Positions 1-64,000 of a stretch of 64,000 nucleotides of DNA are shown here, piece by piece. Position 1 is the stretch's first letter; every line of letters starts with the position of its first letter. Source of the stretch: Vulcanisaeta distributa JCM 11216 (GTDB taxonomy: Archaea > Thermoproteota > Thermoprotei > Thermoproteales > Thermocladiaceae); contig NZ_BBBI01000006.1 of assembly GCF_001315985.1 (NCBI RefSeq), positions 1-64,000 of the forward strand. Direction: 5' to 3'. The notes beneath the pieces are model-generated. The model ran no database searches. It was not told where the DNA came from and saw only the letters and a list, made by a program, of their open reading frames with translations. A program made the translations under genes and the position numbers.

Positions 1-2
1 CA

Positions 3-149
3 AACAAAAACCAACAACCAAAAATAAAAACCTATCGACAAGACAATAAAAACACAACCACACATGGCCTCTCAAAATCCCACACCAACACACAAACCAC
101 ACTAATCATCAACAATCAACAACTCTATGCCCACGCTGGGATTTCATAA
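3..149 (+). CDS. Possible C-terminal end of an unidentified gene (partial)
   Basis: An open frame enters from the left edge and ends at TAA 147-149, encoding about 48 residues rich in Asn, Thr, Gln and Lys. The plus strand here is A/C-rich and almost free of G, like the 3' half of cas4 further on, which is the only support for coding. No motif is recognised. It may equally be non-coding low-complexity sequence. Confidence 0.22.
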   Translation, partial: NKNQQPKIKTYRQDNKNTTTHGLSKSHTNTQTTLIINNQQLYAHAGIS

Positions 150-228
150 TTCCAGGTGCGTTAATGCGTCAACGTGTAATGGCGGATTAGAATCATTGGC
201 AACTTCGGTATTGGTTTATTTCTGTTTC

Positions 229-291
229 TCAATTAATTGATATGTATTTCACAATTAAGAATAAATTACATAAATAAGTTTGAGAAAACAT
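229..291 (+). promoter_or_regulatory. Promoter region of the csa1-cas1-cas2-cas4 operon
   Basis: A perfect 12-bp palindrome, TCAATTAATTGA, lies at 229-240. An A/T-rich TATA-like stretch (ACATAAATAA, about 268-277) follows about 20 nt before the ATG at 292. That spacing suits a leaderless archaeal transcript. Reading the palindrome as a regulator site (for example for Csa3) is inference. Confidence 0.4.
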
Positions 292-1089
292 ATGGTACTG
301 CCCAGGTGGGTTTGGGACTACATTAAAACCACGATGGAGAACGGGTCATACGCAGAAATCAGAGGCTGGGTTAGAGACGCAGTTGTCCCAAGGCATTCCA
401 TTAGGCCAACGGTATCTGAGGTATCATCACCATGCCCAACAAAGCGCGATGCATATCTAAGGCGCGTCGCTAAGATACCAATAGAGGACAGCGAAAGCCT
501 AAGACTCGGCAGGTTAGTACATGAGGTATTCCTAACACCATTCAGAGAGTCAATACCATTCTCACAACTCGACGCTAAATTCGAAAGCATAATCAACGAG
601 TACGGAGATCTAGGCATCAAGTACAGGACCCAACTATACGAGGTCTATATAAAGGCCGTGACCATGGCCCTCAACACCCGTGAGGAGGGAATACCAATCA
701 GCGTTGAACCAGCAATACCAGGGGGGGCGCCAATCGGTCTCTCCGACATTATTAAGCCCGACATACTCGTGGGCTTCATACCCGTGGAAATAGTGACATC
801 ATCACCAACGGAAGAATTAACTAATAGGAAGGACATAGCCGTCACAGCATACGCACTAGCCATAGAGGCTTGGATCGGCCACCCAGTGGACATAGGCGTA
901 GTACTTCATATAAGCATTAACGGAAAGCCAAGACTCACCTGGAGGGTTGTCAAGATAGACGATGCACTAAGGAAGATGTTCCTCGACATGAGAGATACCG
1001 TGGCTAGAATAATCGAGCATGGTGACGACCCAGGACCCGCTAGCTCCTGCCCAAGGACCTGCCCATTCTATGGTGTCTGCCATGGCTAA
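292..1089 (+). CDS. csa1: Csa1, Cas4-like nuclease of type I-A adaptation
   Basis: Cas4-family exonuclease that in type I-A systems works with Cas1, Cas2 and Cas4 to process new spacers. About 265 residues, the usual Csa1 length. Seen in sequence: an N-terminal cysteine in SSPCPTKRD (about residue 48), a GRLVHEVFL segment with the Cas4-type histidine, a PDILVG...PVEIVTS nuclease core, and a C-terminal CPRTCPFYGVC cluster expected to bind Fe-S with the first cysteine. I chose ATG 292 because a TATA-like element lies about 20 nt upstream. A TTG at 280 is an alternative start. The frame is intact. It overlaps cas1 by 8 nt, so the adaptation genes are probably co-translated. Confidence 0.85.
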   Translation: MVLPRWVWDYIKTTMENGSYAEIRGWVRDAVVPRHSIRPTVSEVSSPCPTKRDAYLRRVAKIPIEDSESLRLGRLVHEVFLTPFRESIPFSQLDAKFESIINEYGDLGIKYRTQLYEVYIKAVTMALNTREEGIPISVEPAIPGGAPIGLSDIIKPDILVGFIPVEIVTSSPTEELTNRKDIAVTAYALAIEAWIGHPVDIGVVLHISINGKPRLTWRVVKIDDALRKMFLDMRDTVARIIEHGDDPGPASSCPRTCPFYGVCHG

Positions 1090-2082
1090 CGAAGTATTCA
1101 TAACAGAACCAGGTACAAGAATCATAGCAAGGAAAGGCACAATAATAATAGTGGGCAGGAATGGCAACAAACAGGTACTACCACCAAACACGGAGGAGGT
1201 AATAATCGCAACATCAAAAGCCTCAATATCCACAAAGGCAATAAGAATACTCGCCACAAAAGGCACAAACCTAGTAATCCTAAACCCACTTGGGGGGGAC
1301 CCCGCGGCCATTATTACGCCACCCATCATAAACAAAACCGTTATAACCAGGATAAGGCAATACGAACTATTCCTAAACAACGAAACAAGACTTGAACTAG
1401 CACGCAGAATCATCGCATGCAAGATCGAGAACCAGGCAAGGCTTGTCAGGTACTTCGCCAAAAGCCGCAGGGAACCCTCATTAAACGACATAGCCTACTC
1501 AATATCATCAATGGCAACACAACTAATGTCCATAGAAACCAATAAGCTAAACCCAGAAGTCATCGAAAGCATCGAGGCCAAGGCAGCCAATGCGTACTGG
1601 GACGTCGTAACATCATTACTACCCAACTGGCTTGGGTTCCACGGCAGGAACCCCCCCGAGGGCACAGACCTCATGAACCTAGCCCTAAACTACGGCTACG
1701 GAATACTCTACTCAACAATGGAAAAGTACCTAATAATGGCCGGGCTAGACCCATACCTAGCATACTCCATACAATAAAGAGCGGAAAACCATCACTTGTC
1801 TTCGACATAGTCGAGATCTTCAGGCCAGTAGCCGTGGATAAGCCACTAATAACGGAGATAAGCGATATCAAGCTAAACACCGTAAACGGCTTCCTAGACT
1901 ACGACTCAAGAAGAGCCGTGGCCCGAGTAATACTAAATAACCTAAACAGGGACTACATAAACCCAAAAACCAACAGAAAGACACCACTAACAGAGATAAT
2001 GAAACACGAGACCTGGCACCTAGCCTCAATAATCAGGGAAGGCAACGTGAAGGACTACGAATGCTTCACCTGGGTGTTCTAA
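1082..2082 (+). CDS. cas1: Cas1 integrase (one frameshift in this sequence)
   Basis: CRISPR spacer integrase. The N-terminal beta domain carries GTRIIARKG and the alpha domain carries EAKAANAYW with the first metal-binding Glu. The conserved NLALNYGYGILYS helix follows. The frame breaks near 1767 (TACTCC where TACCTCC would restore it). Downstream, the +1 frame continues as LHTIKSGKPSLVFDIVEIF, which contains the catalytic His and acidic residue. As written, the first segment would lack those residues and be inactive. The restored protein is about 333 residues, normal for Cas1. Starts at ATG 1082 inside the end of csa1. cas2 begins directly after its stop. Confidence 0.9.
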
Positions 2083-2358
2083 ATGTATGTAATCGTCTCA
2101 TACGACGTAAGCAACGATAAGAGGAGACTCGAAATAATGAACAAACTAAAGGCAATGGGCTACATAAGAGCACAAAGAAGCCTATACATAGCCAGAGGCG
2201 GCAGCGCCCTAGCCAAGGACACGGCAAGAGCACTAACTAGACTCATGGACAAGGAAGACTCCGTAATAATACTAATAATTGACACACAAACACTAAACAA
2301 CGCAATAAAACTAGGCACCGCAAACCTAGCAATACCAAACGAACCAACGGTGATATGA
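2083..2358 (+). CDS. cas2: Cas2 endoribonuclease fold protein
   Basis: 91-residue Cas2, the structural partner of Cas1 in spacer integration. The diagnostic N-terminus MYVIVSYDVS gives the beta1 strand ending in the conserved Asp. A ferredoxin-like pattern follows, with the helix around RLEIMNKLKAMGY and the strand SLYIARG. The ATG directly abuts the cas1 stop, and the gene overlaps cas4 by 4 nt, indicating a tightly coupled operon. The frame is intact and the length is typical. Confidence 0.92.
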   Translation: MYVIVSYDVSNDKRRLEIMNKLKAMGYIRAQRSLYIARGGSALAKDTARALTRLMDKEDSVIILIIDTQTLNNAIKLGTANLAIPNEPTVI

Positions 2359-2931
2359 TGGACTACATACCAATAAGCATGGTGAAGGAATACACGTACT
2401 GCCCAAGGCAGGCATACCTAAAACTAATGATAATGAAAGAACCACCCACAGAATCCATGAAATACGCAAAACAAACAACAAATACAGAAAACATAACCAA
2501 AGCCATAAAACAACAGGGAATACAGGGAGAAATAAAACTAGAAGTACCAGTAAAGTCCACAAGCCTCGGCATAGTGGGCAGGGTAGACGCCATAGCAATA
2601 AACGGAAACAGGGCAACCATAATAGAAACAAAACTAAACATAGGAAACAAAAAGAAACTACACACAAAAATACAACCACATACTAGCCCAAACAATAGCA
2701 TACACAATAGCCGTAGAAGAAACAATGAAAGTCACCGTAGACAAAATAATAATCATAAACCAAGAAAAACAAACAACAATAACCATAAAACCCACACCAA
2801 ACCTAAAAACATGGATAAAAAGAACAATCCAAGAAATGAAAAAACACATACAAAACCAAGAACCACCACCAAAAACAACAAACAAAGCAAAATGCAAAAC
2901 CTGCTACTACAAAAACATATGCCCACCATAA
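2355..2931 (+). CDS. cas4: Cas4 exonuclease (one frameshift in this sequence)
   Basis: RecB-like Fe-S exonuclease of the adaptation module. Seen: an N-terminal YTYCPRQAYLK cysteine motif, the core GRVDAIAI...ATIIETK (PD-(D/E)XK type), and after a frame change a C-terminal CKTCYYKNIC cluster. The frame breaks near 2664-2670 in a run of five A; four A would give HTKYNHILAQTIAYTIA and continue to the stop at 2931. About 192 residues when restored. The 3' half is strikingly A/C-rich with few G or T on the coding strand, unlike the interference genes. The gene ends a few bases before array 1. Confidence 0.85.
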
Positions 2932-2936
2932 ACCAC

Positions 2937-3876
2937 AACCCTATTCTCTTTAGAGAATATCTTGCAATTGCTACTGAGGCAAGGCCCACAGGACTTCATG
3001 CATCTAGGACCCTTCTATTCTCTTTAGAGAATATCCGTTACCTCACCGTAGAACTTAACCCTTAGCGGTGAGCCACACCTTCTATTCTCTTTAGAGAATA
3101 TCAACGTACTCTTTGCCAGGAGGATGCATCCAATACTTAGGGCTCCTTCTATTCTCTTTAGAGAATATCTGGGTCCACTATCTTGTGGTGCCTCCTTGCT
3201 TCATCCTCTATGAACCTTCTATTCTCTTTAGAGAATTTCGCTTCATTGCATACAGGGTGGCTAAGTCACTAAACATGCCGTTCCCTTCTATTCTCTTTAG
3301 AGAATTTCACGATGCTCGTCATCAACATGAGACAGCAAGGAAATAAAACAACCTTCTATTCTCTTTAGAGAATTTCACATTGTCCAACCCGTCAATGCAA
3401 AAGGATTAGGAGACCACGACGCCCTTCTATTCTCTTTAGAGAATTTCCGTACGTCCTAATTAATCTTCTAACGAATTCTGACATTGTCACGCGTTCCTTC
3501 TATTCTCTTTAGAGAATTTCTGATTGTGTTGCTAATCGTTTTAGCAACCGTCGTAGTCATAACACCTTCTATTCTCTTTAGAGAATTTCGGAAGTTTATT
3601 AAGTACTCACTTCCACGGTTGATTGCTGTGCAATCATCCTTCTATTCTCTTTAGAGAATTTCTTTCACGGAGAGAAATGCTTATAAACTAGTTAGTCTAT
3701 GTTATAGACCCTTCTATTCTCTTTAGAGAATTTCGTAATTACTATAATAATTAGTGTTTATGCCTGGGTCTATCGGCATCCTTCTATTCTCTTTAGAGAA
3801 TTTCCCACTTGTTGTTGTTGATATTGAACCACTTGATGGAACATACTTATTCCTTCTATTCTCTTTAGAGAATTTC
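2937..3876 (-). CRISPR. CRISPR array 1, 14 repeats, leader on the right
   Basis: Fourteen 25-bp repeats with 13 spacers of 42-49 bp. The repeat contains the near-palindrome ATTCTCTAAAGAGAAT and, in crRNA orientation (minus strand), ends in ATAGAAGG. Repeat starts on the plus strand: 2937, 3011, 3078, 3145, 3215, 3284, 3352, 3423, 3496, 3565, 3638, 3710, 3780, 3852. The four leftmost copies read GAATATC in place of GAATTTC on the plus strand, and the first is further degenerate at its outer end, marking the old trailer end. The conserved leader starts right after 3876. The repeat is the same as in array 2, so both arrays should feed one Cas6 and one effector. Confidence 0.98.
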
Positions 3877-4135
3877 TGAGACGTTACTATTTAAGCTTAC
3901 TTATAAGCCTTTCTTCACACAATACTTATAACTATCGGAACATGCATACCCACGAACATGCATGGTGCGTGCCTGTTCCCACGGTATACCTTATAAGCTC
4001 GTCAATGTTCTGTTGTTTGCGTTCTATTTCACATAAACAAGCCTGTTCCCACGATAAATGACACCGTGATTTAATAATGAACAACCCTGGTTTAGCCTTG
4101 CGTTCAATTTCTAAACAACGCCAGTGTTCCAATGA
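3877..4135 (-). promoter_or_regulatory. Leader of CRISPR array 1
   Basis: The 44 bp next to the first repeat (3877-3920) match the reverse complement of the array 2 leader at 43 of 44 positions. A shared 14-mer (ATGTTCGTGGGTAT on the minus strand) sits 70-83 bp from the repeat in both leaders. Three spaced copies of a TTCCCACG/GTTCC-type motif lie at about 3972, 4042 and 4124. A CTTATAA box about 25 bp before the first repeat should be the array promoter. No gene is seen here. Confidence 0.88.
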
Positions 4136-4147
4136 CCCTATTAATGA

Positions 4148-4963
4148 CTAGGCCTGCGACTCCTCACGCGGAGCCTTTGCCACACCCACGAGCATAAGGC
4201 CTAGAGGCTTCAACCCGTAGTAATGGGCCTTACCCCCCCTCTTCTCATAACCTATCAACCCCCCCTTCCTAATGAGCTTCACGAGAATCCTCTGAACCGT
4301 GGCCATGGACACACAACCCCCCCGGGCTTCTTACAATCCCTATTGAGTTCGCCATGTATATCCTTAGCCCTATGCATGCCACTGCCTATTAGCTTGAGGA
4401 CCCTGTACTCATCATACGTTAAATCGGCTAACCGAGGCACAACAGGCCAGGGAATAACCCTCTCCTCAACATTCCTAAACAAGGCCCTAACCGACGGACT
4501 CTCCTCCTCAAGCATAACAAAGACACTATCCACAGCGACGCCCACGTAACGACCAACCGAGGACAAGGCCAACGCCAAAAACATCAAAGCAACACTAAGC
4601 CACCTAAAACCACCAGCCATACCAATAATGACCCTACACGGCGCATAACCCTCAACCAACGACCTAAGACCAGCCACACTATTGGCAACCCCCCATCCCT
4701 AGGATCAAGCCAAACATCAACAACCTCAACCCCCCCACTATCCAACTCATTAACAAACCTACGAAGAACCTCCATAGCCTCAGTAGGCTGCCTCCTACCA
4801 CCCCCCCTAAGCACCTCCTCAGGCACAACCCTAGGCTCACTATTAACCAGAAAAACCACATCACCACCCCACAGGCCCAGCCCTAACCAACGCCTGCTTC
4901 GCATTACCCCGGATAAAAACCAACACTAACAACCACACACTTCCTAACATTCAACTTCTCCAT
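4148..4963 (-). CDS. csa3: Csa3, CARF-winged-helix regulator (several frameshifts in this sequence)
   Basis: Transcriptional regulator of type I-A cas genes and arrays; the family's CARF domain binds cyclic oligoadenylates. Reconstructed from several frames: start MEKLNVRKCVVVSVGFYPGN at ATG 4963, a CARF-type VVFLVNSEPR strand, a GMAGGFRWLSVALMFLALA ligand-binding helix, the linker LADLTYDEYRVLKLIGSGM, then a wHTH with MATVQRILVKLIRKGGLIGY and a wing. Frame changes fall near 4910, 4870, 4690 (six C, where seven or four fit) and 4320 (seven C, where eight or five fit), all at or beside G/C runs. Divergent from the interference operon with 63 bp between start codons. Confidence 0.8.
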
Positions 4964-4987
4964 AAATTGAGCAGAATAGCGCAATTA

Positions 4988-5026
4988 AGTATATAAAACT
5001 GCCTCAGCAGTTCAGTTAGTGAAAAT
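4988..5026. promoter_or_regulatory. Shared csa3/csa5 promoter with a 16-bp palindrome
   Basis: A TATA box (TATATAAA, 4990-4997) lies about 30 nt before the csa5 ATG and, read on the other strand, about 30 nt before the csa3 ATG. A perfect inverted repeat AACTGC-CTCA-GCAGTT occupies 4997-5012. That puts it just downstream of the TATA box for csa5 and upstream of it for csa3. The position suits an operator controlling the interference operon; Csa3 is the obvious candidate ligand, by inference from family behaviour. Confidence 0.6.
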
Positions 5027-5437
5027 ATGAGTCAACAATCAGTTTCCCAAGAGACTAGGGATTATGTGAAAGACGCTGCCGATATTGTGAGGATTGTTAT
5101 ACACCGTGAACAAGCATACGATATTCTTGATGAACTAGCTAACAACCCTAAACTCGAGACCCTAATCGACGCATTATCTAAAATCTCCAGGCTAGTGACC
5201 AAGACTCTGAACGACCTTAATGACCTTAAGAATAAGGTGAATAGAGATGATTGTAGGAGTGTGATAACAAATGTCATGGGTGGATTACAATGGTGGTTTA
5301 AGAGACAGGATGAATTGTACAATTATCTTAAAAATATTAAGGACGTACGTATTGAAATTAAGCGCTTTGCGGCATATGCATTAGCACCAGATAATAACGT
5401 GGTTAAGATTAGTGAGTGTGAAGAAAGTATGAGGTGA
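5027..5437 (+). CDS. csa5: Csa5, small subunit of the type I-A Cascade
   Basis: 136-residue helical protein in the position and size of Csa5 (Cas11), the small subunit that lines the non-target strand in the type I-A surveillance complex. Assignment rests mainly on gene order (first gene before cas7) and an all-helical, charged sequence with a WWFKRQDELYNYLK segment. It is the first gene of the interference operon, with a TATA box about 30 nt upstream of its ATG. The frame is intact and its stop overlaps a possible GTG for cas7. Confidence 0.75.
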   Translation: MSQQSVSQETRDYVKDAADIVRIVIHREQAYDILDELANNPKLETLIDALSKISRLVTKTLNDLNDLKNKVNRDDCRSVITNVMGGLQWWFKRQDELYNYLKNIKDVRIEIKRFAAYALAPDNNVVKISECEESMR

Positions 5438-5442
5438 TAACC

Positions 5443-6482
5443 ATGGCATACCCACCTTACGTTAAGGTTACTGGTAGATTTACGGTGGAGGTTTCAGCCC
5501 TAACTGGATCGGGCAATATTGGTAATTATAATCAGGTTGCTACTGCTAAGATAGTTGTTCCAAATGGTAGTACATATAGGGTTTATGATAGTGTACCCAT
5601 AATCACGGGAAACGCCCTTAAGCATTGGCATGCCGTTTATCTTGCTCAAGAATACGTGAAATTGAAAGGTTCATTATTAAATATTCTATGCAAGCATGGG
5701 GTTGGATTAAGAGGATATAAATATACTGTAAATCAAATGGACTCTGGTTCTCTTGCATCCGCTGATAGTGAACAAGATGCCATAATTGACCTTTGTAATG
5801 ACTTACATGGGTTTTTAATACCTGATAAGCAGCTTAAGAGGGATTCACTTATTGAGGTTAGTCATGCCATACCCGTGTTAGCTATCGATAATGTTGAAAA
5901 TGTCGTCAAGTTTGCAGTTCAACATAATAGGGTTGTTCCTAAGCAAGTCACAAAAGGAGAGGGCGAAGGTATGATGGTGTTTAAGCAAGAATATGTGTCA
6001 GGACCTTTATATGCTTCGCCATGAGTATGGACCTTGGGTGGGTTTTGAGACCTAGGTATGAGGGTGATGGCAGTATTATAAGCAAATTACCTAATAATGC
6101 GAATGTAGATGAAGAGAGAAAGAGGAGGGCTAGGGCGTCAATATTGGCAGTTTTAAACATGTTAATGGGCAGTGGCTCTAAGCAGGCACGCTCATTGCCT
6201 ATAAGTGACTTAAAGGAGTTGATCATAGCAGTTTCCGATGCACCAATACCTAACCTGGTGCATGGTGCTTACCCTGACTATGTTAAGCAGTCGATCACCG
6301 TATTAGAGACCTACGCATCTATCGTAAGTGAAGCTCACGTATACGTTCATTGCTATGGAATAAGCGAGTGTAAGTCCTTTACCGCGTTCAAGAATATGTC
6401 CGTGAAGGTTCACGATAATCTTAAAGACCTGTTTGATGAGGTTATTAAGGAGGTTGAGGATATGATTGCGAAATACAAGTAG
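5443..6482 (+). CDS. cas7: Cas7 (Csa2) backbone subunit (one frameshift in this sequence)
   Basis: RAMP-fold backbone protein that coats the crRNA spacer. N-terminal motif ALTGSGNIGNYNQV and the following AKIVVPNG strand are typical of Csa2, and SVPIITGNALKHWHA matches the family's RNA-binding segment. The frame breaks near 6015: GCTTCGCC, where GCTTTCGCC would give LYAFAMSMDLGW and continue to the stop at 6482. Restored length about 347 residues. ATG 5443 was chosen; GTG 5434, overlapping the csa5 stop, would add three residues. Confidence 0.88.
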
Positions 6483-6491
6483 GCGGTTTTG

Positions 6492-9196: not shown

Positions 9197-9203
9197 TGAT
9201 TTA

Positions 9204-11097: not shown

Positions 11098-11163
11098 TTT
11101 TTAACCATATGGAGAACATTTTTATGTGCCTGAAGCATTTATTAACAGGTATAGTATAATTGC

Positions 11164-22673: not shown

Positions 22674-24617
22674 ATGGCATCCTTAAAGGAGGAGATGGAG
22701 AAGAAGATTATGGAGATCCTACCGCCCGAAGCCAAGTTTTCTAGGGTGGACTTTGAGGGGGGGCCTAACGTAATTATTTACGTGATGAACCCAAGGTACG
22801 TGATGGAGCACAGCGAGTACATAAAGACCCTGGCTAAGGAGTTGAAGAAGTACATAATCATTAGGGGGGGTGATCCGAAGGTTAGGATTAGGGAGGTTGA
22901 TAAGTTGAAGAGGGCCATAACGGATATGGTAACTAAGAGCGTGGGCTCAAACATAATCGATGATATTGTGGTTGACGAACCGACCGGTGAGGTCTATGTA
23001 TACCTGAAGAAGCCCGTTAGGGAGAGGAGTAAGTTGGAGAAGGAGATACTGGCTGAGACTGGCTGGAAGCCCTGGATAATACCCACGGCCCTAGAAATGG
23101 GCGCTGGACTGCCTAGGTCGGATATAGATGCCGTTAAGCAGATACAATTGGCCACGGCAAAGGATAGGCTCGAGTTCCTTAGGAGGCTTGGAATGAGGAT
23201 TCATAGGGAGCCCATTTACAGGGATGCCAGGATAACAGTTACCGGCCTAGGCGCTCAGATGGAGGTTGGTAGGAGCGCCATACTCATAAGGACGAAGGAA
23301 AGCTCAATACTCCTGGACTGCGGCGTTAAGCCATCAAGCTCGGGAGATGAGGCACCATTACTTGATGAACTAGACCTGGACACCCTAGACGCCGTAGTCA
23401 TAACCCACGCGCACATGGACCACATCGGCTATGTACCATACCTATTCAAGTATGGCTATAAGGGCCCGGTCTACATGACGGAGCCGACCAAGTACCTAAT
23501 GGAGGTGCTACTCACTGACTATATTGAGCAGGCGGAGTCTGAGGGTAGGGTTCCACCGTATAGTAGGCAGGACCTTGCCCAAGCCCTCTACCACACGATA
23601 ACCCTTAACTACGCTGATCACCCAACGGACATATCACCGGACACGAAGTTGATGCTCTTCGACGCGGGTCATGAGGTTGGCTCAGCCGTGGTGCACCTAC
23701 ACATTGGTAATGGCCTTTACAACATCATCTACACGGGAGACATGAAGTACGGACCAACGAGGCTCCTGAACCCAGCCCATAATAAGTTCAAGAGGGCTGA
23801 GTTGCTCATTATGGAGAGTACCTACGGTGGCAAGGAGGATATTCAACCGCCAAGGCAGGAAAGTGAGCAAAGGCTTGTTGATTTGGTTAAGCACACCGTT
23901 GAGCATGAGGGTAAGGTTTTGATACCCGTGTTCAGCACGGGTAGGGCCCAGGAAATACTCCTGGTGCTTAATGAAGCCATTAACAATAAGCAGTTACCCA
24001 AGATCCAATCTACGTCGATGGGATGGTGCTGGAAACACTAAACGTACACCTAATGTTCCCCGACTACCTGAATAGGACCCTCAGGGAGATGATATACGAC
24101 GGCATAAACCATTCCTGAGTGAGTACGTTAAGCCAATCGAGAGGGCCAGGGACCCTGAGAAGCGTAAGGAGCAGGTCATGGAGATACTCCAGGGACCACC
24201 AGCAGTCATACTGGCCCCCCACACGGCATGCTCAATGGAGGACCAATAATGGACTACTTCGTGCACGCTGCCGAGGATGAGAGGAACATGTTATTGTTTG
24301 TCTCGTACCAGGCCGAGAACACGATTGGTAGGAGGATTCAGCAGGGCGAGAGGAAGTTGACTGTTAGGTATTACTCGGATAGGGTGACGCTTGATGTTAA
24401 GATGAAGGTTGAGTCGATACCGGGCTTCTCGGGGGGGCACAGTGATAGGAGACAGTTGATTAATTACGCTAGGAACATGGAGCCGAAGCCTCATAAGATA
24501 ATGCTTGTCCACGGCGAACCAAGCAAGATAATGAACCTAGCCCTAACCCTGGAGCTCCAGTTGAAGATACCAACAATATTCATGAATAATGGGGGGGAGA
24601 CCATTAGGCTCGTTTAG
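22674..24617 (+). CDS. aCPSF1, archaeal beta-CASP ribonuclease with KH domains (frameshifts)
   Basis: Archaeal cleavage-and-polyadenylation-factor homologue, the 3'-end-forming and transcription-terminating endonuclease. N-terminal KH region with AKFSRVDFEGGPNVIIYV, then metallo-beta-lactamase motif THAHMDHIGYVPY, DAGHEVGSAVVHL, YTGDMKYGPTRLL, and beta-CASP motifs MESTYGG, IPVFSTGRAQEIL, HGMLNGGPIMDYF and FSGGHSDRRQL. Frames change near 24003, 24110 and 24213 (six C; four fit). Extra residues at G7 runs (FEGGP for FEGP, FSGGHSD for FSGHSD) show length inflation. Essential in archaea, so the breaks are probably sequence errors. About 640 residues. Confidence 0.9.
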
Positions 24618-33057: not shown

Positions 33058-34316
33058 ATGGTTGAGGAGGTAAGCCTTGAGGATGTATTCGCAAAGATTG
33101 ATGAAGGTAAATTGAAACTTCACGAACTAGACAAGGTCCTCGGAGACTCAAACAAGGCAACAGAAATTAGGAGGAAATACATAGAAAGCAAGGTCGGTGC
33201 GAGGCTTGAGAACGTCGGTAAGACCGTAATAGACTTCAACACCGTCGTTGGTAGAAACATTGAAAATACAATAGGCGCCGCCCAAATACCCATAGGTGTT
33301 GCCGGGCCGTTACGCATAATCGGCGATTATGCTAATGGCCTTTACTACATACCATTAGCAACAACGGAGGGGGCACTCGTTGCCTCAGTAAATAGGGGTG
33401 CCAAAGTAATTACTGAAGCCGGTGGCGCAAGGAGTAAGGTTATTAATGATGGTATGACCAGGGCCCCCCCCGTAATAGCCGTACCAAGCGTCATTGACGC
33501 TGTCGAGCTCGTTAACTGGGTTAATGAACACTTCAATGAGGTGAAGAGCGTGGCCGAGTCAACCAGTAGGCACGCGAAGTTAGTAAGCATTCAACCATTC
33601 ATTGTTGGTAATAATGTATGGCTTAGGTTTAAGTTCACGACTGGGGGGGATGCAATGGGCATGAACATGGTTACAATAGCCACTGACAAAGCCGTTAAGT
33701 ACATACTCAGCAACTTCCCAAGGGCTCGGTTAGTCGCCCTCAGCGGCAATATGTGCGTGGATAAGAAGGCTAATGCCGTGAATTTCCTGCTTGGTAGGGG
33801 TAAGACCGTGATTAGCGAGGCCGTAATACCAAGGAGTACCCTTGAGAAGTGGGGCGTCACTGCGGAGGACGTGGCCGAGGTCAATAATAGGAAGAACCTG
33901 CTTGGTTCGGCGCTGGCTCACTCATACGGCTTCAACGCCCACTTCGCTAATATAATCGCGGCCATATTCATAGCCACCGGTCAAGATGCTGCCCAAGCCG
34001 TTGAGTCAAGCATGGGTATTACCTGGATGGAACCCCCCCTCGACAATGGTGACCTCTACGTATCAGTCACACTGCCTAGTCTCGAGGTTGGCACCGTCGG
34101 TGGCGGCACCGGGTTACCAACACAGAGAGAAATGCTTCAAATGCTCGGTGTTTATGGCTCAGGGAACCCACCCGGTACCAATGCCTGAAGTTCGCAGAGA
34201 TAGTAGCGGCAGCGGTACTCGCCGGCGAGGTTAACCTAGTCCTTGCCCTGGCTAGAGATGAGTTGGCGAGGGCGCATGAGATGTTGGGCAGGGCTGGCAA
34301 GAGAGATAGTACGTGA
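33058..34316 (+). CDS. hmgA: HMG-CoA reductase (one frameshift near the C-terminus)
   Basis: Class I HMG-CoA reductase making mevalonate for archaeal lipids. Seen: ENTIGAAQIPIGVAGPL, catalytic Glu in TTEGALVASVNRG, GMTRAPPVIAVPS, TTGGDAMGMNMV, catalytic Asp region in HGxxNxAN (AHFANIIAAIFIATGQDAAQ) and VTLPSLEVGTVGGGTGLPTQ. Two motifs carry one extra residue at C8/G7 runs (family: TRAPV and TGDAMGMN). The frame breaks near 34188 (GCCTGAAG, one C short); then KFAEIVAAAVLAGEVNLVLA and the normal C-terminal helix to 34316. About 418 residues. Confidence 0.93.
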
Positions 34317-34913: not shown

Positions 34914-35531
34914 ATGTCGAAGGTAACAGGTACTGTAAAAATTCCTGAAATGGAGATTAAAGAGAGTGTCGAGTTGCCATCGTCCGGCACGGCTATAATA
35001 GTTGTCGATATGCAGAATGACTTCGTAAAACCAAACGGTAAACTATACGTACCGACAGCGCAAGCCACAGTACCTGCGATAAGGAAGCTGCTTATGAAGG
35101 CCAGGGATGCCAATGTACCCATAATATACACCCAGGACTGGCACTTCAAGAATGACCCAGAGTTTAGGATTTGGGGGGGTGAGCACTGTGTAATGGATAC
35201 GTGGGGGGGTGCCGAGATAGTTGATGAGCTTAAGCCCATGCCTAGTGACATAGTAATAAGGAAGCGTAGGTATGATGCATTCTTCGGCACGGATCTTGAC
35301 TACGTGCTTAGGCATGTTGTTCATGCGACTAACCTCGTGATAGTGGGTACCGTAGCCAACATATGCGTACTGCACACTGCGGGTAGCGCCGCACTTAATT
35401 GGTACAACGTTGTCGTACCAATTGATGGGATCTCCGCACTAAATGAGTTTGATTACTACGCGGCCCTTAGGCAAATATCATTCTTGTACAAAGGTACGCT
35501 TACTAAGGTTGATGGGGTAAAATTCACGTAG
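34914..35531 (+). CDS. Isochorismatase-family cysteine hydrolase (nicotinamidase-like)
   Basis: 205 residues. Catalytic Asp in AIIVVDMQNDFVKPNG, metal-binding QDWHFKNDPEF, Lys in IRKRRYDAFFGTDLD, and nucleophile Cys in VGTVANICVLHTAGSA. WGGEHCVMDTWGGAEIVDEL has two extra Gly relative to the nicotinamidase pattern WxEHCVxGTxGAE, both at G7 runs. Probably hydrolyses nicotinamide or a related amide, but the family is broad. Single gene with an A/T-rich upstream region. Confidence 0.82.
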   Translation: MSKVTGTVKIPEMEIKESVELPSSGTAIIVVDMQNDFVKPNGKLYVPTAQATVPAIRKLLMKARDANVPIIYTQDWHFKNDPEFRIWGGEHCVMDTWGGAEIVDELKPMPSDIVIRKRRYDAFFGTDLDYVLRHVVHATNLVIVGTVANICVLHTAGSAALNWYNVVVPIDGISALNEFDYYAALRQISFLYKGTLTKVDGVKFT

Positions 35532-36652: not shown

Positions 36653-38937
36653 GTAGCTCTGAAACACTTGATGATACCCCCCCCTTCAGTATTGCATCAA
36701 TAACCTTAATTGCGTTTTTCCTGGATAGGTAGTGGTTATCATTACCACAGTAGGGTGAGTACACGCATTTGGGGGGGCAACCATCAGTGCATGTACAATG
36801 CGTAAGTACACTAAGCGAGATTTTAAGGACTTCATCAATCCTCTTAATAATCATCCTGGCAGTGCCTGAACCGCCTGGGTATGAGTCGTAGATTATTATG
36901 TGCCCAGTTGGGTATGAGATACCGCCTAGGTCCGTGGGCCCCGCCCCCCCAATCACGTTCTCACCAACCATAATCATTACATGCTCAGCCGCGTGATAGG
37001 CCCTACCCCCCCTCTCAACAACATCAACATTCTCAAACGGGCTGAAGGTTATGAACGGCGCATAAATAACAACACCTTTTGTCCTAAATTCATACGTAAA
37101 CGGCTCACCGAACTCCCTCTTCTCAACAACCTCGCCACTGCCGAATCTCTTAACCACGTAACCATGAACAACCTCCTTAATTGTTAACCTAACGTATTGA
37201 TAGGGCACGGATTTTATGAAACCCTCCTCAAGGATCTCGTCAATCCTAGGTTCAGAGCTATATAGCGCTGTTGTGTAAAAGTCGTAATCACCTTGTAGTT
37301 TCCTAACGTATGCTGTCCTGCTACTTAGGTCAAGTTTATAGACCTCGTAAACCCTACCGCCATGTAGGTAAATGGCGCCATCATGAAGCTCCCTCAATGC
37401 CATAGGCAGCTCCCTATGGCCAATGACCCTCTTACCCTCAACAATCTTAATAACCTCGCCAACACCCCTAATACCATGTATTGCCCTAACAACCTCACGG
37501 CCTTTGTCACTCACGACGTAGTAATTACCCCCTAACCTCGACTAAGCCATCATTAACTAATGACTTAAGTATTTCCTCGCAGTACATATCCACGGAACCA
37601 CTCCTCACGGGCCTCTCGTAAGCCATCAACAGGCAGTGTCTCCTGGCTATCTCGTCATTTCTCCATTCAACGTACAAATCCTCAGGCCTCCTCATGTAGA
37701 ATTCACGTGGATTCGAACTATAGTAGGTACTCATTGGGTCATCCCCCAAGGACCTGAATCACATAGGCCCTTTGACCCTCCTACCAACTACCACTCCTCT
37801 GCAGGTACTTCGAGTAGCTGGGCGGTATTGTGGCCATGACCGCAACATCAACATCACCAACATCAATACCCATCTCAAGCGTCGGCGTGGTTAGGAGCAC
37901 TAGGTACCTGCCCTCCCTAAACCCATCCTCAACCTCATGCCTCTCCTCAATCGTGAGCCCAGCCCTATGAACCCCTAACCCTATCGCCAAACCCAGCCCT
38001 ATCAACAAACCTCTTAATCAACTCAACAAACCTATGACTATCAGCAAAGACAAGGCACTTCATATCCCTCCTAACACACACCCTAGCCAACTCAGCCGCC
38101 TCGGCAAGCCTACCCCCCCTACTTATTGGGCTAACTAGGACATGCCTAACCAAGCCCCCCCTCCTACCCTCGGGACCTCTGATCAGCCTAACATCATCGA
38201 CGCCAAGCAATTCCCTGGCAAAATCAATTGGGTTTCCAACAGTGGCCGTGGAAACGACGAATTGGTAACCTCTCATGAACCTTCTCATCCTCTTAAGGAC
38301 ATAATGGACGTGAGCGCCAAAGACCCCCCCATTATAGACGTGGAAGTCGTCCAACACGATTACCCTGTAATTACGGAGTAAATCCCTGAACTTACTGACG
38401 TGGGTTAATGCTTCACTAACCATGTCAGGGTTTGTGATGAGTATGTCAGGTGGTGAGGAGTATATCCGAGACCTAATATCACTGGGTGTGTCACCGTCAT
38501 ACGGCATTACGGACACGTTGATCGCCGTGAAGTACCTCTGCATCCTGAGTAGTTGGTCCCTGGCGAGGGCCTTTGTTGGGTACATAATTATTGCCTTAAC
38601 ACCCTCCTTATTGATCATCGTTATTAATGGCAGTAGGAATGCCTCGGTCTTACCAACGCCGGTACCGGCCATTATAACCACATTATTCCCATTAATAATT
38701 GATTGATAGGCCTCCCATTGAAAGTCAAAGAGCTTATCAATCCCAAGCCCCCCTCAACCTACTTATCAATTCCCTTGGTAGTTTCAAGCTGTCGATTGAT
38801 GGCCCGTAACTCGGCTCTGAGGGTTTGTCCTCATGTACGTAGAGGATCATTCTAGCTCTATCGCTACCTAGCTCGCCTATGAATTCATCCTCAAGCATGT
38901 ACTTGGCCACTGTGAGCCTATCGCCCCCCCTAATCAT
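36630..38937 (-). CDS. DEAD/DEAH helicase with DUF1998-like C-terminus (several frameshifts)
   Basis: Superfamily 2 DNA helicase of the MrfA/Hrq1-like group. N-terminus from ATG 38937. Motifs: Walker A MAGTGVGKTEAFLLP, PTKALARDQLLRM, ITNPDMVSEAL, DDFHVYNGGVFGAHVHY in place of DEAH, STATVGNP, TPTLEMGIDVGDVD and QRSG at motif VI. The C-terminus holds THCTCTDGCPPKCVYSPYCG, a four-cysteine site whose family form is CxxGCPxC; the extra Pro is at a C7 run. Frames change near 38745, 37990, 37790-37740 and 37525. About 765 residues. Probably DNA repair. Confidence 0.78.
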
Positions 38938-38959: not shown

Positions 38960-39838
38960 TTAGTAATTAATAACTTTGGGTGGGTTTAACCGCATATACC
39001 TAATCTCATCAACCGCCTTAAGCCTCAGTACCTTTGGTTCGATCACCGTAAACTTATCCCAACGCCTAATAATGGGCCTCAACCTATTACCACACCTGGG
39101 GGGGCACTTCCTCATCTCACCCTCAGTCTCAAAATCGATATAGCAATTAATACATCTGAAGACATTTATCGCCCTGTAATCATCGAAATCCAGCGATACG
39201 AGGCTTGGCACCTCCGTAATTACAACACCATCAACCACATCCTGCAACTCCTCAATAACCTCCCTCCTAAACAATGAATTATCAAGCATCATCAGGAATT
39301 CCTTACTACCATAAACAATCCTAAACCTATCCCTGACACGTAATAGCCAATCTCTATCAATAACTCCATCCTTAATAATAACGCCATAAGCCCTAATGGA
39401 CTGTTGATACGGCCTATCAGGACTCACAACCACGTAATTCACGGAGTCATCACTAACACTCTGATTAATACGAACAACATCAATTAAGTCACTATTGATA
39501 CTTATGAAATCATCAACTAATACGCCATCAGCACCGCCAGCCAACGAAGCCCTAATGAAATCACTGACTGGGTCAGGCATCGCCGAACCATAAATAAAGA
39601 CCCTAAGGCCAACCCTTTTGGCCCACGCAACTGCGCTGGCCAACGATATTAACTGCCTAAGCCTACCCAATAACTGCCTAAGAACATCACCATTAACATT
39701 ACTCAACTCAACTATGGGCTCAGGCGGTGCTACCGGCGTGGCATCCCTAACATACTTAACAACTTCCAAACCCTCAAATAACCAGGAGCCGGCGAACATG
39801 CACCAGGGCAGTCCGCACCACTTAATGAGTATCCTCAC
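38960..39838 (-). CDS. Zinc-ribbon protein of unknown function next to the helicase
   Basis: 292 residues, intact. The C-terminal zinc ribbon FRCINCYIDFETEGEMRK then CPPRCGNRLRP; with the C7 run shortened to four it reads CPRCGNRLRP, a normal CxxC knuckle like that of Sir2-type proteins. The rest (FIYGSAMPDPVSDFIRASLA, VSPDRPYQQSIRAYGVIIKD) suggests a Rossmann-like alpha/beta domain, possibly Sir2-related, but the GAGxS motif is absent. 22 nt upstream of the helicase on the same strand, so they probably form one transcription unit. Confidence 0.5.
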   Translation of the reverse strand: MRILIKWCGLPWCMFAGSWLFEGLEVVKYVRDATPVAPPEPIVELSNVNGDVLRQLLGRLRQLISLASAVAWAKRVGLRVFIYGSAMPDPVSDFIRASLAGGADGVLVDDFISINSDLIDVVRINQSVSDDSVNYVVVSPDRPYQQSIRAYGVIIKDGVIDRDWLLRVRDRFRIVYGSKEFLMMLDNSLFRREVIEELQDVVDGVVITEVPSLVSLDFDDYRAINVFRCINCYIDFETEGEMRKCPPRCGNRLRPIIRRWDKFTVIEPKVLRLKAVDEIRYMRLNPPKVINY

Positions 39839-41370: not shown

Positions 41371-42217
41371 ATGTCTGCGTCAAGGCCGATGGTGGGTACA
41401 AAGGCGTACCACCTAATGGCTGGCCCTGGTGATGTGGCGCCATACGTTTTGACACCAGGCGACCCTGACAGGGTACCCAGGATTGCCAAGTACTGGGACT
41501 CCGCCCGTGCCGTGGCAACGCACAGAGAGTACGTAACCTACACGGGAACTTACAAGGGCGCCCCCAATATCGGCGGTATCCACCGGTATCGGCGGACCGG
41601 CGGCGGCAATAGCCATTGAGGAATTACTCACCCTCGGCGCAAACACCTTCATTAGGGTTGGCACGACTGGGGGGGCACTACACGAGTGGATTAGGGTTGG
41701 TGATGTCATTATTAACACAGGCGCCGTTAGGTTTGACGGAGCGAGTAACGCCTACGCAATGCCCGAGTACCCTGCGGTGGCCAGTTACGACGTGGTCTTG
41801 GCCCTTATAACGGCCGCAGAAATGCTCGGCGTTAAATATCACGTTGGGTTAACGGCATCGACAGCAGACTTCTATGTAGGCCAGGGCAGACCGGGATTCA
41901 GGGATTACCAACCACCCTGGTCAAGGGATCTCGTTAATACGTTATCCTCGATGAACGTACTCAACTTTGAGATGGAGGCTGCAACGATTTACACAATAGC
42001 CAATGTACATGGGGGGGCAAGGGCTGGGGGGGGTATCATGGCGGTCATAGCCAATAGGAAGACTAATGAATTTGCGCCGGACGCCGGAGTCGAGGATGCG
42101 ATTAAGGTAGCCAATGAAGCCGTTAGAATACTTTATGAGTGGGACGCGATAAAGGCTAACATGGGGGGGCTTAGGTACTTAACAATGAATGTAATTAGGG
42201 ATTGGTTAAAGAGGTGA
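41371..42217 (+). CDS. Nucleoside (uridine-type) phosphorylase (one frameshift)
   Basis: NP-1 family phosphorylase. Seen: YVLTPGDPDRVPRIAKYWDS, REYVTYTGTYKG, then after a frame change TGIGGPAAAIAIEELLTLGA, FIRVGTTGGAL, LNFEMEAATIYTIANVHG and IMAVIANRK. The break is at 41560-41564 (five C; four gives APISAVSTGIGGP). The family form is RVGTTGAL, so the G7 run adds one Gly. About 281 residues. Probably salvages uridine or purine nucleosides. Confidence 0.87.
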
Positions 42218-44385: not shown

Positions 44386-44771
44386 TTATTGGGGAAACTC
44401 CATACTTAGGTTCTTTGATAATGAGACCTTCATAGCCTTAAAACCAAGTCTCAACCTTACACCCTCAAGCACATCAAGTGAGAATGAATCATCAACAGCC
44501 CCCCATTAAGCGGCTCAACCTTAAGCGTGAGTATCCATCCATTGTAGGACTCGGCTAAGTTACGCTCTATGTAAAATGGCACACCATCAACCCTACCAAC
44601 CTCGATATAATCACTACCAACAATGAAATCACTAGCCCTATATATCTGTGGCTCCGTTGGTGAGCAACAGCCGTGCCCAAGGATTATGATAATATCACCG
44701 TATTTCTCCTTCATATTCCTAATCAACTCCTTAACATCATCCCCCCCAAACTCGACATCAACATTCAACAC
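44386..44771 (-). CDS. DUF779 family protein (one frameshift)
   Basis: Small protein family usually encoded beside aldehyde dehydrogenases, as here. Seen: ILGHGCCSPTEPQIYRASDF, DYIEVGRVDGVPFYIE, YNGWILTLKVEPLNG. The frame breaks at a run of six C (44499-44504); four C restores NGAVDDSFSLDVLEGVRLRL and the stop at 44386. About 127 residues restored. Function unknown; possibly an ALDH regulator or accessory protein. Confidence 0.8.
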
Positions 44772-52657: not shown

Positions 52658-52759
52658 GCCCCGGTAGCTCAGCCCGGTCGGAGCGCCCTGGGGGGGCGAA
52701 AGCCCCGTGCAAGCCTTGTAAGCGGGAGGTCCCGGGTTCGAATCCCGGCCGGGGGGGCT
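52658..52759 (+). tRNA. tRNA-Thr (UGU) with a non-canonical intron
   Basis: Acceptor GCCCCGG pairs with CCGGGGC if the G7 run is really four. D-arm GCTCAGCCCGGTCGGAGC, T-arm CCGGG-TTCGAAT-CCCGG. Removing a ~21-nt intron (24 nt as written, beginning TGGGG and ending GTGCAA) joins CCC to GC, making the stem CCCGC/GCGGG around loop CUUGUAA: anticodon UGU. The intron sits between positions 29 and 30, in the anticodon stem. Discriminator T is followed by encoded CCA. A TATA-like GCTTAAAATT lies about 25-30 nt upstream. Confidence 0.88.
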
Positions 52760-55213: not shown

Positions 55214-55251
55214 GGTTAAATAAAATGTAGCGCTATAGCTGCAATTCAGTG

Positions 55252-56333: not shown

Positions 56334-57570
56334 ATGAAGCAATACTTACCAATGAAGGTTACGGTCTCAATAATAAAGGCCGACATAGGTGGCTTACCAG
56401 GACATGCGTGGGTACATCCCAAGATACTTGAATTTGCTGCTGAAAGACTGAGGGAGGAGCAGAGGAGCGGCTTGCTTATTGATTACTTTGTTTATAATGT
56501 CGGTGATGACATGTCACTACTTATGACACACACTAAGGGTGAGAATAACCCGGACATCCATGGCCTTGCCTGGTCAATATTCAAGGAGGCCACGGAGAAC
56601 ATTGCAAAGAAGGTTAAGCTTTATGGCGCTGGTCAGGACCTGCTTAAGGATACATTCAGCGGGAACATTAGGGGGGGATTAGGCCCACAGGTTGCTGAGA
56701 TGGAGTTTGAGGAGAGACCCAGTGAACCGCTTGTGGTGTTTGCCGCGGATAAGACGGAGCCCGGAGCCTTCAACTTACCATTCTATAGGATATTCGCCGA
56801 CCCGTTCAACACGGCCGGCCTAGTCATAGACCCGGCAATGCACCAGGGGGGGTTTAGGTTTGAGATACTGGATGTATATGAGGGTAAGGTCTACCTGCTT
56901 GACGCTCCTGAGAATAGTTACGACATACTCGGCCTAATAGGCACACCGGGCAGGTACATAATAAGGAGGATTTACAGGAAGTCTGACCTGGTGCAGGCCT
57001 CGGTGACGAGTGTTGAGAGGCTGAACTTAATCGCCGGCCGCTATGTTGGTAAGGACGACCCGGTGGCCATAGTCAGGGCTCAGCATGGCTTACCAGCGGT
57101 TGGTGAGGTACTCGAGGCCTTTGCCTACCCACACCTGGTTGAGGGTTGGATGAGGGGGGGTAGCCATGTTGGTCCATTAATGCCCGCAAAGATGGTGAGT
57201 ATTGATCAGGAGAGGAAGATAGCCCTTGGCCCAAAGATGACTAGGTTCGATGGACCACCAAAGGTCATAGCCCTCGGCTTCCAGCTGCATGATGGTTACC
57301 TGGAGGGCCCCCGTGGACTTATTTGATGACCCAGCCTTTGACTATAGTAGGCAGTTGGCTGCTCAGATAACGGATTACATAAGGAGGATGGGGCCTGTAA
57401 TGCCGCATAGACTGCCGCCTGAGGAGATGGAGTACACGACATTACCACAAATACTCTCGAAGCTTAAGCCAATACCAGTCGATGAGTATGAGAAGAATAG
57501 ACTTCAGTACATTCAATTCGTAACATCGCAGACAAGCGGTCAAGAGACCACGGGCCCAAGCCATGATTAA
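56334..57570 (+). CDS. fbp: Fructose-1,6-bisphosphate aldolase/phosphatase (one frameshift)
   Basis: Bifunctional gluconeogenic enzyme making fructose 6-phosphate from triose phosphates. Seen: SIIKADIGGLPGHAWVHP, FVYNVGDDMSLLMTHTKGE, HGLAW, GAGQDLLKDTFSGNIRG, QVAEMEFEERPSEPLVVF, KTEPGAFNLPFYRIFADPFN and GPKMTRFDGPPKVIALGFQ. The family forms NIRGxGP, MHxGF and MRGSH each have one extra Gly here, at G7 runs. The frame breaks at 57309-57313 (five C; four gives LEGPVDLFDDPAFD). ATG 56352 is also plausible, since most members start MKVTVS. About 412 residues. Confidence 0.93.
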
Positions 57571-57602
57571 AGTACTTAGTTACTAAGGGGGGGATTTAAA
57601 AT

Positions 57603-58626: not shown

Positions 58627-58661
58627 GACTTTAGTATTAATGCAATGACCCTAATTAAGTA

Positions 58662-59814: not shown

Positions 59815-59834
59815 GTAAATATAAGCATTATTGG

Positions 59835-60287: not shown

Positions 60288-60338
60288 CCCTCCACACTTA
60301 AAGTAATGACTTAATTTTAAGGCTTAAGCATTGTCGCT

Positions 60339-60995
60339 GTGAGTTGGTATAACGATTTCGTAAGTAGATTAATACAGTGCAGGGCATGCCCAAGGCTAGT
60401 GAGTTATAGGGAGAGTGTTAAGCCACTGCCGAGGTTTATGGATGATAATTACTGGAGGAGACCGGTACCGCCATGGGGTGACCTGGGTAATGCTAGGATA
60501 ATGATCGTTGGGTTAGCGCCGGCTGCGCATGGTGGTAATAGGACTGGGCGTATGTTCACTGGGGGGGATAGCAGTGCTCAATTCCTGTTTAGGGCCTTAT
60601 ACGAGGCTGGCTTGTCTAATAAGCCCTATAGTATTTCCAGGGATGATGGTGTTGCTGTTAGGTGCGTGTACATAACGTCAGTCGTTAAGTGCGCACCGCC
60701 AGACAACAGGCCAAATAATGAGGAGATTCACACCTGCGTGAACAATTGGTTTAGGTATGAACTTGTTCGTGTCATGCCGAGGGCGATAATTGCCCTTGGA
60801 CACATAGCGTTTCTCGGCATTAAACTGGCCCTTGGTATTAGGGCTGAGTTTAGGCATGGTGGTTACATTGATTTTAATGGAGTTAGGATATTCATGAGTT
60901 ATCACCCAAGCCCAAGGAATACTAATACTGGTAGGTTGAGGATTGAGGATTTAGTGAGTATTTTGAGGATGGCCATGGAACACGCAGGTTGTTGA
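60339..60995 (+). CDS. Uracil-DNA glycosylase, family 5 (UDGb)
   Basis: 218 residues, intact from GTG 60339. Removes uracil and other deaminated bases from DNA, important at high temperature. Fe-S cysteines begin with CRACPRLVSYRE; motif 1 GLAPAAHGGNRTGRMFTGGD (family FTGD, one Gly extra at a G7 run); VVKCAPPDNRP; and SYHPSPRNTNTGR. The SYHPSPR(N/Q) motif near the C-terminus is diagnostic. Its stop directly abuts the stop of the convergent acyl-CoA dehydrogenase gene. Confidence 0.92.
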   Translation: MSWYNDFVSRLIQCRACPRLVSYRESVKPLPRFMDDNYWRRPVPPWGDLGNARIMIVGLAPAAHGGNRTGRMFTGGDSSAQFLFRALYEAGLSNKPYSISRDDGVAVRCVYITSVVKCAPPDNRPNNEEIHTCVNNWFRYELVRVMPRAIIALGHIAFLGIKLALGIRAEFRHGGYIDFNGVRIFMSYHPSPRNTNTGRLRIEDLVSILRMAMEHAGC

Positions 60996-62166: not shown

Positions 62167-63341
62167 AATTCTACCTCCGGTAGCCCCCCCCTTGTTAATA
62201 TTCTATGAATTACTATTTTCTGAACCTCATTCGTACCCTCGGCAATCTCGAGGACCTTGGCATCCCTGTAAGCCCTCTCGGAGAAGCTCTCCTTTGAGTA
62301 TCCGAAGCCACCGAGTATTTGAACGCCATCCCTCGCTATTTCAACGGCCATTTGTGCCGTGTATAGCTTGGCAATTGAGGCGTAGAGTACGAATGATGGG
62401 TCCTTATTATCATAAAGCCAGGCAGCCTTGTAAGTCACCGTCCTGCCAATCTCAAGCTTCGTCTTTATATCAGCTAACTGGAATTGAATCCACTCCCAAT
62501 CAATAAGCGGCTTACCAAATGCCGTCCTTGTCTTGGCCCACTCAAGGGCCTCATCAAGCACTCCCTGGGAAAGCCCAAGGGCTACCGCAGAAATGCCTAT
62601 CCTGGCTAGGTCCAGCGTGACCATGGCTATTTTGAACCCCCCCTCATTAACCTTACCAACAACATCATCATCACCAACCACACAATCATTGAACTTAACC
62701 TCAGCCTCGCCAGCACCCCCCCTCATACCCATCATCTCCAACTTACTAACCTCAACGCAATCACTTCTTCTCACGAGGAATGCCGTTACTGCCCTATGCC
62801 TGGCCTCCTTGGCCCCCCCGTCCTCGCGAAGAGTAGGTAAACGTCTGCATAGGCTCCCTGCGTTATCCAAATCTTTCTACCGTTTATTACCCACTCACCA
62901 CCCCCCCTCCTCTCAGCCCTAGTCTCGATAGCCGCGGCATCACTACCACAACAAGGCTCGGTGAGTGCGTACGATGCTACCCACTCACCGCTGGCTATCT
63001 TCGGCAGTACCTCCTCCCTCTGTTTGTTACTACCATACTTGAGCAACGCGTATACTATGTTATCATTTACTATCTCTGTTATGAAACCTAGGGTTGGGCT
63101 GTATCGACTCAACTCCTCAACAACCACAACACTACCCCTAAGGTCAATGCCTGGTCCACCGTATTCAGGCGGTGCAGATGGTGTTAGGAAGCCCTGCTTA
63201 GCAAGTTCCTTATTAGGTCCCTTGGATAGTAGTCCTCAAGATCCATTTTTCTGGCTAGGGGGGGACTATGTATCTCTCGGCAAACTCCTTGACACTGTTT
63301 CTAATGAGCTGGTGTTCCTCTGTAAGGAAGGGATCTGGCAT
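62163..63341 (-). CDS. Acyl-CoA dehydrogenase 2 (frameshifts)
   Basis: Paralogue of the downstream gene. From ATG 63341: MPDPFLTEEHQLIRNSVKEF, then after a G7 run on the plus strand (63258-63264) ARKMDLEDYYPRDLIR, FLTPSAPPEYGGPGIDLRGS, ALTEPCCGSDAAAIETRAER, then after a C7 run near 62813-62819 AKEARHRAVTAFLVRRSD, FNDCVVGDDDVVGKVNEGGF, FGYSKESFSERAYRDAKVLE, IAEGTNEVQKIVIHRIL. A 57-bp stretch is identical in DNA to gene 1. Likely acts with the acyl-CoA synthetase and thiolase elsewhere in the window. Confidence 0.87.
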
Positions 63342-63377
63342 ATAACTAAATAAAATCATTATATTAATAAGTATTAC

Positions 63378-63902
63378 TCATGTTAGTACTTTCTTAATCA
63401 AAAATATTATTAGTAATACTATGATTAATGAGATAGTGAATAACGAGAAATACCAGGCAAATATTAACGTAAATAAACCTGGATTAATACCGGCCTCCTT
63501 AATCATTGGGTTAATTACATTGAATACCGGCGAGTTGACGAGAACCCTCTCCATAATGTATGATAAATATATTATCAACAGGGATAACAATAGGGAATAG
63601 GGCTCAAGGGCTCCAACTAGTAGTAGATATAATACTATACTTATTATCAGTATAATCGTGTAATTTATTAAGAATGTAGATGGTATTAGAAAGCCCATGA
63701 CTATTAATAATGACGCATTGATTATGAAAATGTAATTACTATATGTGGGTTTATATGATATGATTATCATGGAGACCATGTTTATAATAATACCAAGAAG
63801 CGCCATGTCAGTATATTGCGTTAGTATCAACTCAAGTATTAGCCATACAACACCAACCAACATGTATAAGACGTAATTACTTAACTTGATCATAATAATC
63901 AC
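63378..63902 (-). CDS. Hydrophobic membrane protein of unknown function
   Basis: 174 residues, intact, about five to six transmembrane helices (YVLYMLVGVVWLILELILTQ, ALLGIIINMVSMIIISYK, IFIINASLLIVMGFLIP, TIILIISIVLYLLLVGALEP, LFTISLIIVLLIIFLIKK). Rich in Ile and Leu with A/T-rich codons. No family recognised. It might be a small permease or a structural membrane protein. Confidence 0.5.
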   Translation of the reverse strand: MIIMIKLSNYVLYMLVGVVWLILELILTQYTDMALLGIIINMVSMIIISYKPTYSNYIFIINASLLIVMGFLIPSTFLINYTIILIISIVLYLLLVGALEPYSLLLSLLIIYLSYIMERVLVNSPVFNVINPMIKEAGINPGLFTLIFAWYFSLFTISLIIVLLIIFLIKKVLT

Positions 63903-63910
63903 TGTTAAAA

Positions 63911-64000
63911 CTATTGATTGATTATATCGAAATTTAATAAGATAACTTTATTTCTACCACCAATATTATTAAGAACCTTATTCAATTCCTCAGTAAGTGG
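63911..64000 (-). CDS. C-terminal end of an unidentified gene (partial)
   Basis: An open frame enters from the right edge on the minus strand and ends at TAG (63911-63913). The 29 visible residues include PLTEELNKVLNNIGGRNKVI and end in FDIINQ. Too little is visible to identify it. Confidence 0.4.
   Translation of the reverse strand, partial: PLTEELNKVLNNIGGRNKVILLNFDIINQ

Follow-up and report, generated by a model that had tools for sequence, protein, structure and literature searches.

The draft genome of Vulcanisaeta distributa JCM 11216 (RefSeq GCF_001315985.1, referred to here as G000; 65 contigs, 2,422,819 bases) carries thousands of runs of exactly seven G or C, and comparison with related sequences strongly suggests that the extra bases in these runs are false, being the product of a systematic over-call of G/C homopolymers of at least four bases that was carried into the assembly (a reading to which we assign a probability of about 97%). 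We analyzed a 64,000-nucleotide stretch of this genome, positions 1 to 64,000 of contig NZ_BBBI01000006.1 (the window), and compared it with other parts of the same assembly and with related genomes. The data show the inflation itself, its limits by base and by run length, its absence from unaffected relatives, its occurrence in ribosomal RNA (rRNA) and transfer RNA (tRNA) genes, and its recurrence in three assemblies. The initial annotation of the window, made from its sequence, had offered an assembly or base-calling artefact as the simplest reading, and this view is supported by our finding that close relatives free of the peak at seven do not share the extra residues.

The number of G/C runs in the window drops from 1,278 at length three to 63, 18, and 9 at lengths four, five, and six and then rises to 121 at length seven and 15 at length eight, with none longer. 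The A/T runs fall off normally (215, 77, 8, 1, and 0 at lengths four through eight). A first-order Markov model predicts ~9 sevens for the window (4.5 C plus 4.5 G), which would be outnumbered by sixes. The run-length table called for by the initial annotation thus bears out its claim that G/C sevens, and some eights, abound throughout. The same shape was seen across 544 kb of the assembly (the window plus 24 other stretches), which contained 598 fours, 192 fives, 61 sixes, 1,045 sevens, and 115 eights, again with none longer. Over the whole assembly, exact G/C sevens number 4,803 (2,522 + 2,281) in 2.42 Mb.

The window was aligned to three single-contig genomes, G014, G016, and G017 (the published complete V. 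souniana genome of 2,432,148 bases [PMC9872577]), and to the draft of JCM 16159 (G019). After the removal of runs with poorly aligned flanks, 100 of the 136 window runs of seven or eight could be compared with at least one relative. The relative had four bases in 131 of 140 comparisons involving window sevens, five in 7, three in 1, and one in 1; for window eights, it had five bases in 7 of 10 comparisons, four in 2, and eleven in 1. The extra bases are therefore largely absent from independently sequenced close relatives, as would be expected of an artefact, and the true lengths predicted at the outset, namely, four for the sevens and five for some of the eights, agree well with these comparisons.

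When run lengths in the three single-contig genomes were taken as true, 630 of 638 threes had the same length in the window, and none read seven. Among 85 true fours, 49 had become seven, 24 had stayed at four, 2 had become eight, 5 five, and 2 six, and 3 were shorter, while the seven true fives read seven (3 runs), eight (3 runs), or six (1 run). Adding G019 led to the exclusion of 11 runs at which the relatives disagreed and raised the number of true fours to 140 (84 to seven, 37 unchanged, 2 to eight, 11 to five, 2 to six, and 4 shorter); with this addition, one true three, at 56671, read seven (G019 alone has three bases there), and one true five kept its length. Runs of 4 to 6 A or T were nearly all the same length as in the relatives.

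Gap counts gave a concordant picture. Relative to G014, the window had 100 extra three-base insertions and lacked 12, with 74 of the 100 lying in G/C runs of at least seven; the corresponding numbers were 99, 18, and 70 relative to G016 and 114, 12, and 89 relative to G019. Three control pairs yielded 12, 19, and 24 three-base extras, none of which lay in such runs. Single-base insertions and deletions (indels), which we examined as a second class of error, were not more frequent in the window than between unaffected genomes. The frame-keeping change of three bases proposed in the initial annotation is indeed the commonest jump, but a strict rule of three could be ruled out, since fives and sixes become seven or eight. 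With a three-base jump being the most frequent outcome, genes generally stay in frame, at the cost of one added Gly or Pro in conserved motifs.

Two other genomes among those surveyed proved to be affected. Thousands of sevens were present in 3 of 25 genomes in the family, these being G000, the draft of V. distributa JCM 11217 (accession BBBJ; G015), with 3,857 (2,031 + 1,826), and G011, which belongs to a different genus of the family and has the highest density, with 7,958 exact sevens (4,190 + 3,768) in ~1.9 Mb; the other 22 genomes had at most 63 + 56, and ten other genomes in the genus had 0 to 5 each. An order-wide survey returned the same three genomes, from two genera, among 45 (the rest had at most 144 + 166), and a draw of 398 genomes from the phylum, which did not include G011, returned G000 and G015 alone (next highest, 185 + 155). 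These surveys count sevens; a histogram of run lengths confirmed the excess of sevens over sixes in sampled parts of G000, G015, and G011. Twelve 20-kb stretches of the three single-contig relatives were free of G/C runs of at least seven bases, and the drafts of JCM 14467 and JCM 16159 showed no peak in the stretches examined, with JCM 16159 having 1 + 2 sevens genome-wide. Of the relatives that were aligned, G015 was the only one to share some of the extra bases, and it has both a genome-wide peak and an inflated 23S rRNA gene.

Completeness was estimated at 68, 67, and 47% for G000, G015, and G011, respectively, and unaffected members of the genus range down to 54 and 63%. G011 (loci L121 and L122) combines a peak at seven with the value of 47%; JCM 16159 (L032 and L127 to L130) lacks the peak at 63%, so its low completeness has another cause.

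RNA genes were inflated as well. In an intron-bearing tRNA gene of the window, seven G had been reported to face four C in both the acceptor stem and the intron hairpin, and relatives without the peak indeed have G4 at these sites. G014 and G019 have G4 in place of the acceptor run at 52751, and G016 and G019 have G4 in place of the intron run at 52690, a difference of three bases in every case; both runs are seven long in G015. The intron sequence of G014 differs at 52690, and its total is also three bases shorter. ARAGORN found no tRNA in the window or at the matching site of JCM 11217. In three unaffected genomes, JCM 16159 (L032 and L127), G014 (L103), and JCM 14467 (L010), it reported tRNA-??? 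at the equivalent position (the label tRNA-Thr being that of the initial annotation).

The 3' part of the JCM 11217 23S rRNA gene, when aligned with that of G014, showed 11 mismatches in 2,233 columns, a small part of which extends beyond the rRNA, and 142 of 143 gapped bases fell in homopolymers. True fours in this alignment read seven (26 runs), eight (1 run), four (12 runs), five (8 runs), or three (1 run); 15 true fives read seven or eight, 3 were unchanged, and 1 read six; and 5 true sixes read seven or eight. Similarly, in the first 195 bases of contig 1 of G000, which are part 23S rRNA end and part flank, 23 of 24 gapped bases lay in runs, with 1 mismatch in 196 columns. With the Rfam archaeal 23S model, G015 yielded only pieces, and G000 and G011 yielded no match. 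The two affected Vulcanisaeta drafts each have the 3' part of the 23S rRNA gene at the start of a contig (L166, bases 1 to 189 of contig 1 of G000; L162, contig 10 of G015). Taken together, these results indicate that inflation is blind to coding and structural constraint, with 23S rRNA and tRNA genes being inflated like protein genes (intergenic runs pooled). Post-processing that protects reading frames was ruled out, given that rRNA is also inflated.

All eleven protein motifs that the initial annotation had named as inflated could be aligned, and peak-free relatives were three bases shorter at each, save that G019 was four shorter at 56671 (Table 1). The affected draft G015 was three bases shorter at seven motifs, one shorter at one, and equal at three. 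At the UDGb site, the run of G015 is interrupted (GGAG) and short, in contrast to the unbroken seven-base run of the window. Since the interrupted run gained no bases, the process acts on the literal run rather than on the codon. Inflation requires that the run be uninterrupted in the genome concerned, and some uninterrupted runs are spared. The observation that certain four-base runs are untouched also held, both at 44391 and among the 140 true fours described above; no relative aligned at the four-base runs at 15815 and 15820. A plasmid search using the FBP gene gave no match.

Table 1. Inflated and spared G/C runs in the window and their lengths in aligned relatives
Feature	Position	Strand	Comparison or content
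G/C runs of exactly seven (121) and eight (15), with 63 runs of four	1..64000	both	Run counts, throughout the window
G7, aCPSF1-like gene (FSGGHSD)	24431..24437	+	G4 in G014, G019; three shorter in G016, G017; seven in G015
C8, HMG-CoA reductase-like gene (TRAPPV)	33464..33471	+	C5 in G019; three shorter in G014, G016, G017; eight in G015
G7, HMG-CoA reductase-like gene (TGGDAMGMN)	33643..33649	+	Three shorter in G014, G016, G017, G019, G015
G7, nicotinamidase-like gene (TWGGAE)	35203..35209	+	G4 in G014, G016, G017, G019, G015
Run behind GCPPKC, helicase-like gene	36771..36777	-	Three shorter in 5/5 aligned relatives
Run behind CPPRCG	39098..39104	-	Three shorter in G014, G016, G017, G019; one shorter in G015
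G7, phosphorylase-like gene (TTGGAL)	41669..41675	+	Three shorter in 5/5 aligned relatives
G4, left at four	44391..44394		Four in window and in G016
Intron-bearing tRNA gene	52659..52757	+	Acceptor C4 (52659-52662) faces G7 (52751-52757); intron hairpin G7 (52690-52696) faces C4 (52703-52706)
G7, FBP aldolase/phosphatase (NIRGGLGP)	56671..56677	+	Three shorter in G014, G016, G015; four shorter in G019
G7, FBP aldolase/phosphatase (MHQGGF)	56846..56852	+	Three shorter in G014, G016, G019; seven in G015
G7, FBP aldolase/phosphatase (MRGGSH)	57154..57160	+	G4 in G014, G016, G019, G015
G7, UDGb-like gene (FTGGD)	60561..60567	+	Three shorter in G014, G016, G019, G015

Elsewhere in the window, positions 280 to 12000 hold genes that, judged from their open reading frame translations alone, resemble a CRISPR-Cas cluster.

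We also analyzed what sets the state of a run. Of 1,642 four-or-seven runs in the 544-kb sample, 1,044 (64%) were sevens, with G and C behaving alike (578 of 904 G runs and 467 of 739 C runs; these counts come from a separate script and include one edge run more). None of the bases flanking these runs from -12 to +12 predicted inflation (24 tests; smallest P = 0.023). Local GC content showed only a weak trend (P = 0.14) and was set aside as a driver of the four-or-seven state.

The lengths observed would follow if true fours were reported as sevens and fives or sixes as sevens or eights, with runs of at most three bases and A/T runs being called correctly. The likely platform for this assembly is the Ion Torrent Personal Genome Machine (PGM), and the error may have arisen in its flow-based data from a wrong conversion of signal to length for G and/or C. 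Accession BBBK, which adjoins the BBBJ accession of G015, is documented as a PGM draft of V. souniana JCM 11219 (PMC9872577), and three JCM Bacillus drafts of 2014 were built from PGM reads with Newbler 2.8 (PMC3961732). Were a single nucleotide miscalibrated and read from both strands, the strands would disagree, and the consensus could fall on four or seven nearly at random, in line with the lengths observed. A batch-wide calibration fault would fit this pattern. The vendor's software includes a recalibration of runs of at least four bases, and this step could be the culprit, in which case it would account for the threshold.

The errors resemble and depart from those known for the PGM. In published PGM profiles, short runs are over-called and long runs increasingly under-called, with A or T flows tending to be the most error-prone (PMC3623719, PMC4719071). 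Like the homopolymer flow-call errors described in PMC3623719, those described here are length errors tied to homopolymers, with substitutions being much rarer, and false indels enter assemblies; unlike them, they consist of over-calls of G/C runs of at least four, mostly by two or three bases, with A/T runs right. Under-calling that grows with run length and is worst in A/T flows was thus not what we observed. The high-frequency indel errors of PGM runs are likewise mostly specific to single runs, with the false indel frequent in the reads; they differ in occurring about once per thousand bases without a base or length class, whereas most G/C runs of at least four are affected here (PMC3623719). 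We lean, by a narrow margin, toward a threshold-like, nucleotide-specific over-call outside the PGM profiles cited here, in which G/C runs of at least four become seven or eight through a batch-wide calibration fault, and which affects at least three public species-representative genomes and perhaps more in the deposit series. A literature search gave no account of such a G/C over-call among the matches listed, and we claim no novelty for it.

Several observations weigh against a systematic over-call from PGM data. PGM use is documented for BBBK and not for G000, G015, or G011; the pattern is unlike the ordinary PGM error of the published profiles (PMC3623719, PMC4719071); and two further JCM drafts, JCM 14467 and JCM 16159, lack the peak in the stretches examined. 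Moreover, it does not explain the mild site concordance between the window and G015 (33 sites at seven in both, 9 at seven and four, 5 at four and seven, and 6 at four in both; Fisher P = 0.056) or the slight differences in inflation rate among stretches of the assembly (chi-square P = 0.010).

Within the artefact reading, the fault may lie in the assembly or consensus step, such as a Newbler flow-space consensus, instead of in the reads. A consensus rule could produce the bimodal lengths (37 fours, 84 sevens, and 13 fives or sixes from 140 true fours), and a common pipeline is possible; however, a rule applied after base calling would not obviously leave A/T runs alone, and averaging of flow values would yield more fives and sixes than observed. 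We therefore regard this variant as unlikely and a fault in base calling as considerably more probable. A base modification or sequence motif that upsets base calling at some G/C runs is very improbable. The three affected genomes do come from one archaeal family, with mild site concordance between two of them, but sevens number 0 to 5 in each of the ten other genomes in the genus, and a motif or methylation cause was rejected because none of the 24 flanking positions gave a signal across 1,642 runs.

Least credible of all is that G4 and C4 runs have truly expanded, usually by three bases, and been retained since the frame survives. The commonest change does keep the frame, and it is seen in three species; against this, 47 runs of 23S rRNA are affected in G015, only one side of each of two tRNA stems is affected, the single-contig genomes of the genus lack the expansion, and inflation tracks the actual string of bases present in a given genome, not the codon. 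We consider this possibility practically negligible next to a systematic over-call.

The 3,857, 4,803, and 7,958 sevens in three public archaeal genomes are presumably nearly all false. Through them, conserved motifs acquire an extra Gly or Pro, models of tRNA and rRNA are spoiled, and, since the frame usually survives, a gene that looks intact offers no warning. This could mislead anyone who interprets motif variants or unusual tRNA or rRNA features in these assemblies. A run-length histogram in which sevens outnumber sixes provides a quick screen for further affected genomes. The odd protein and tRNA features that arise from inflated runs are sequence error and not real biology; as such, they are of little biological interest but merit a flag to users of the three genomes.

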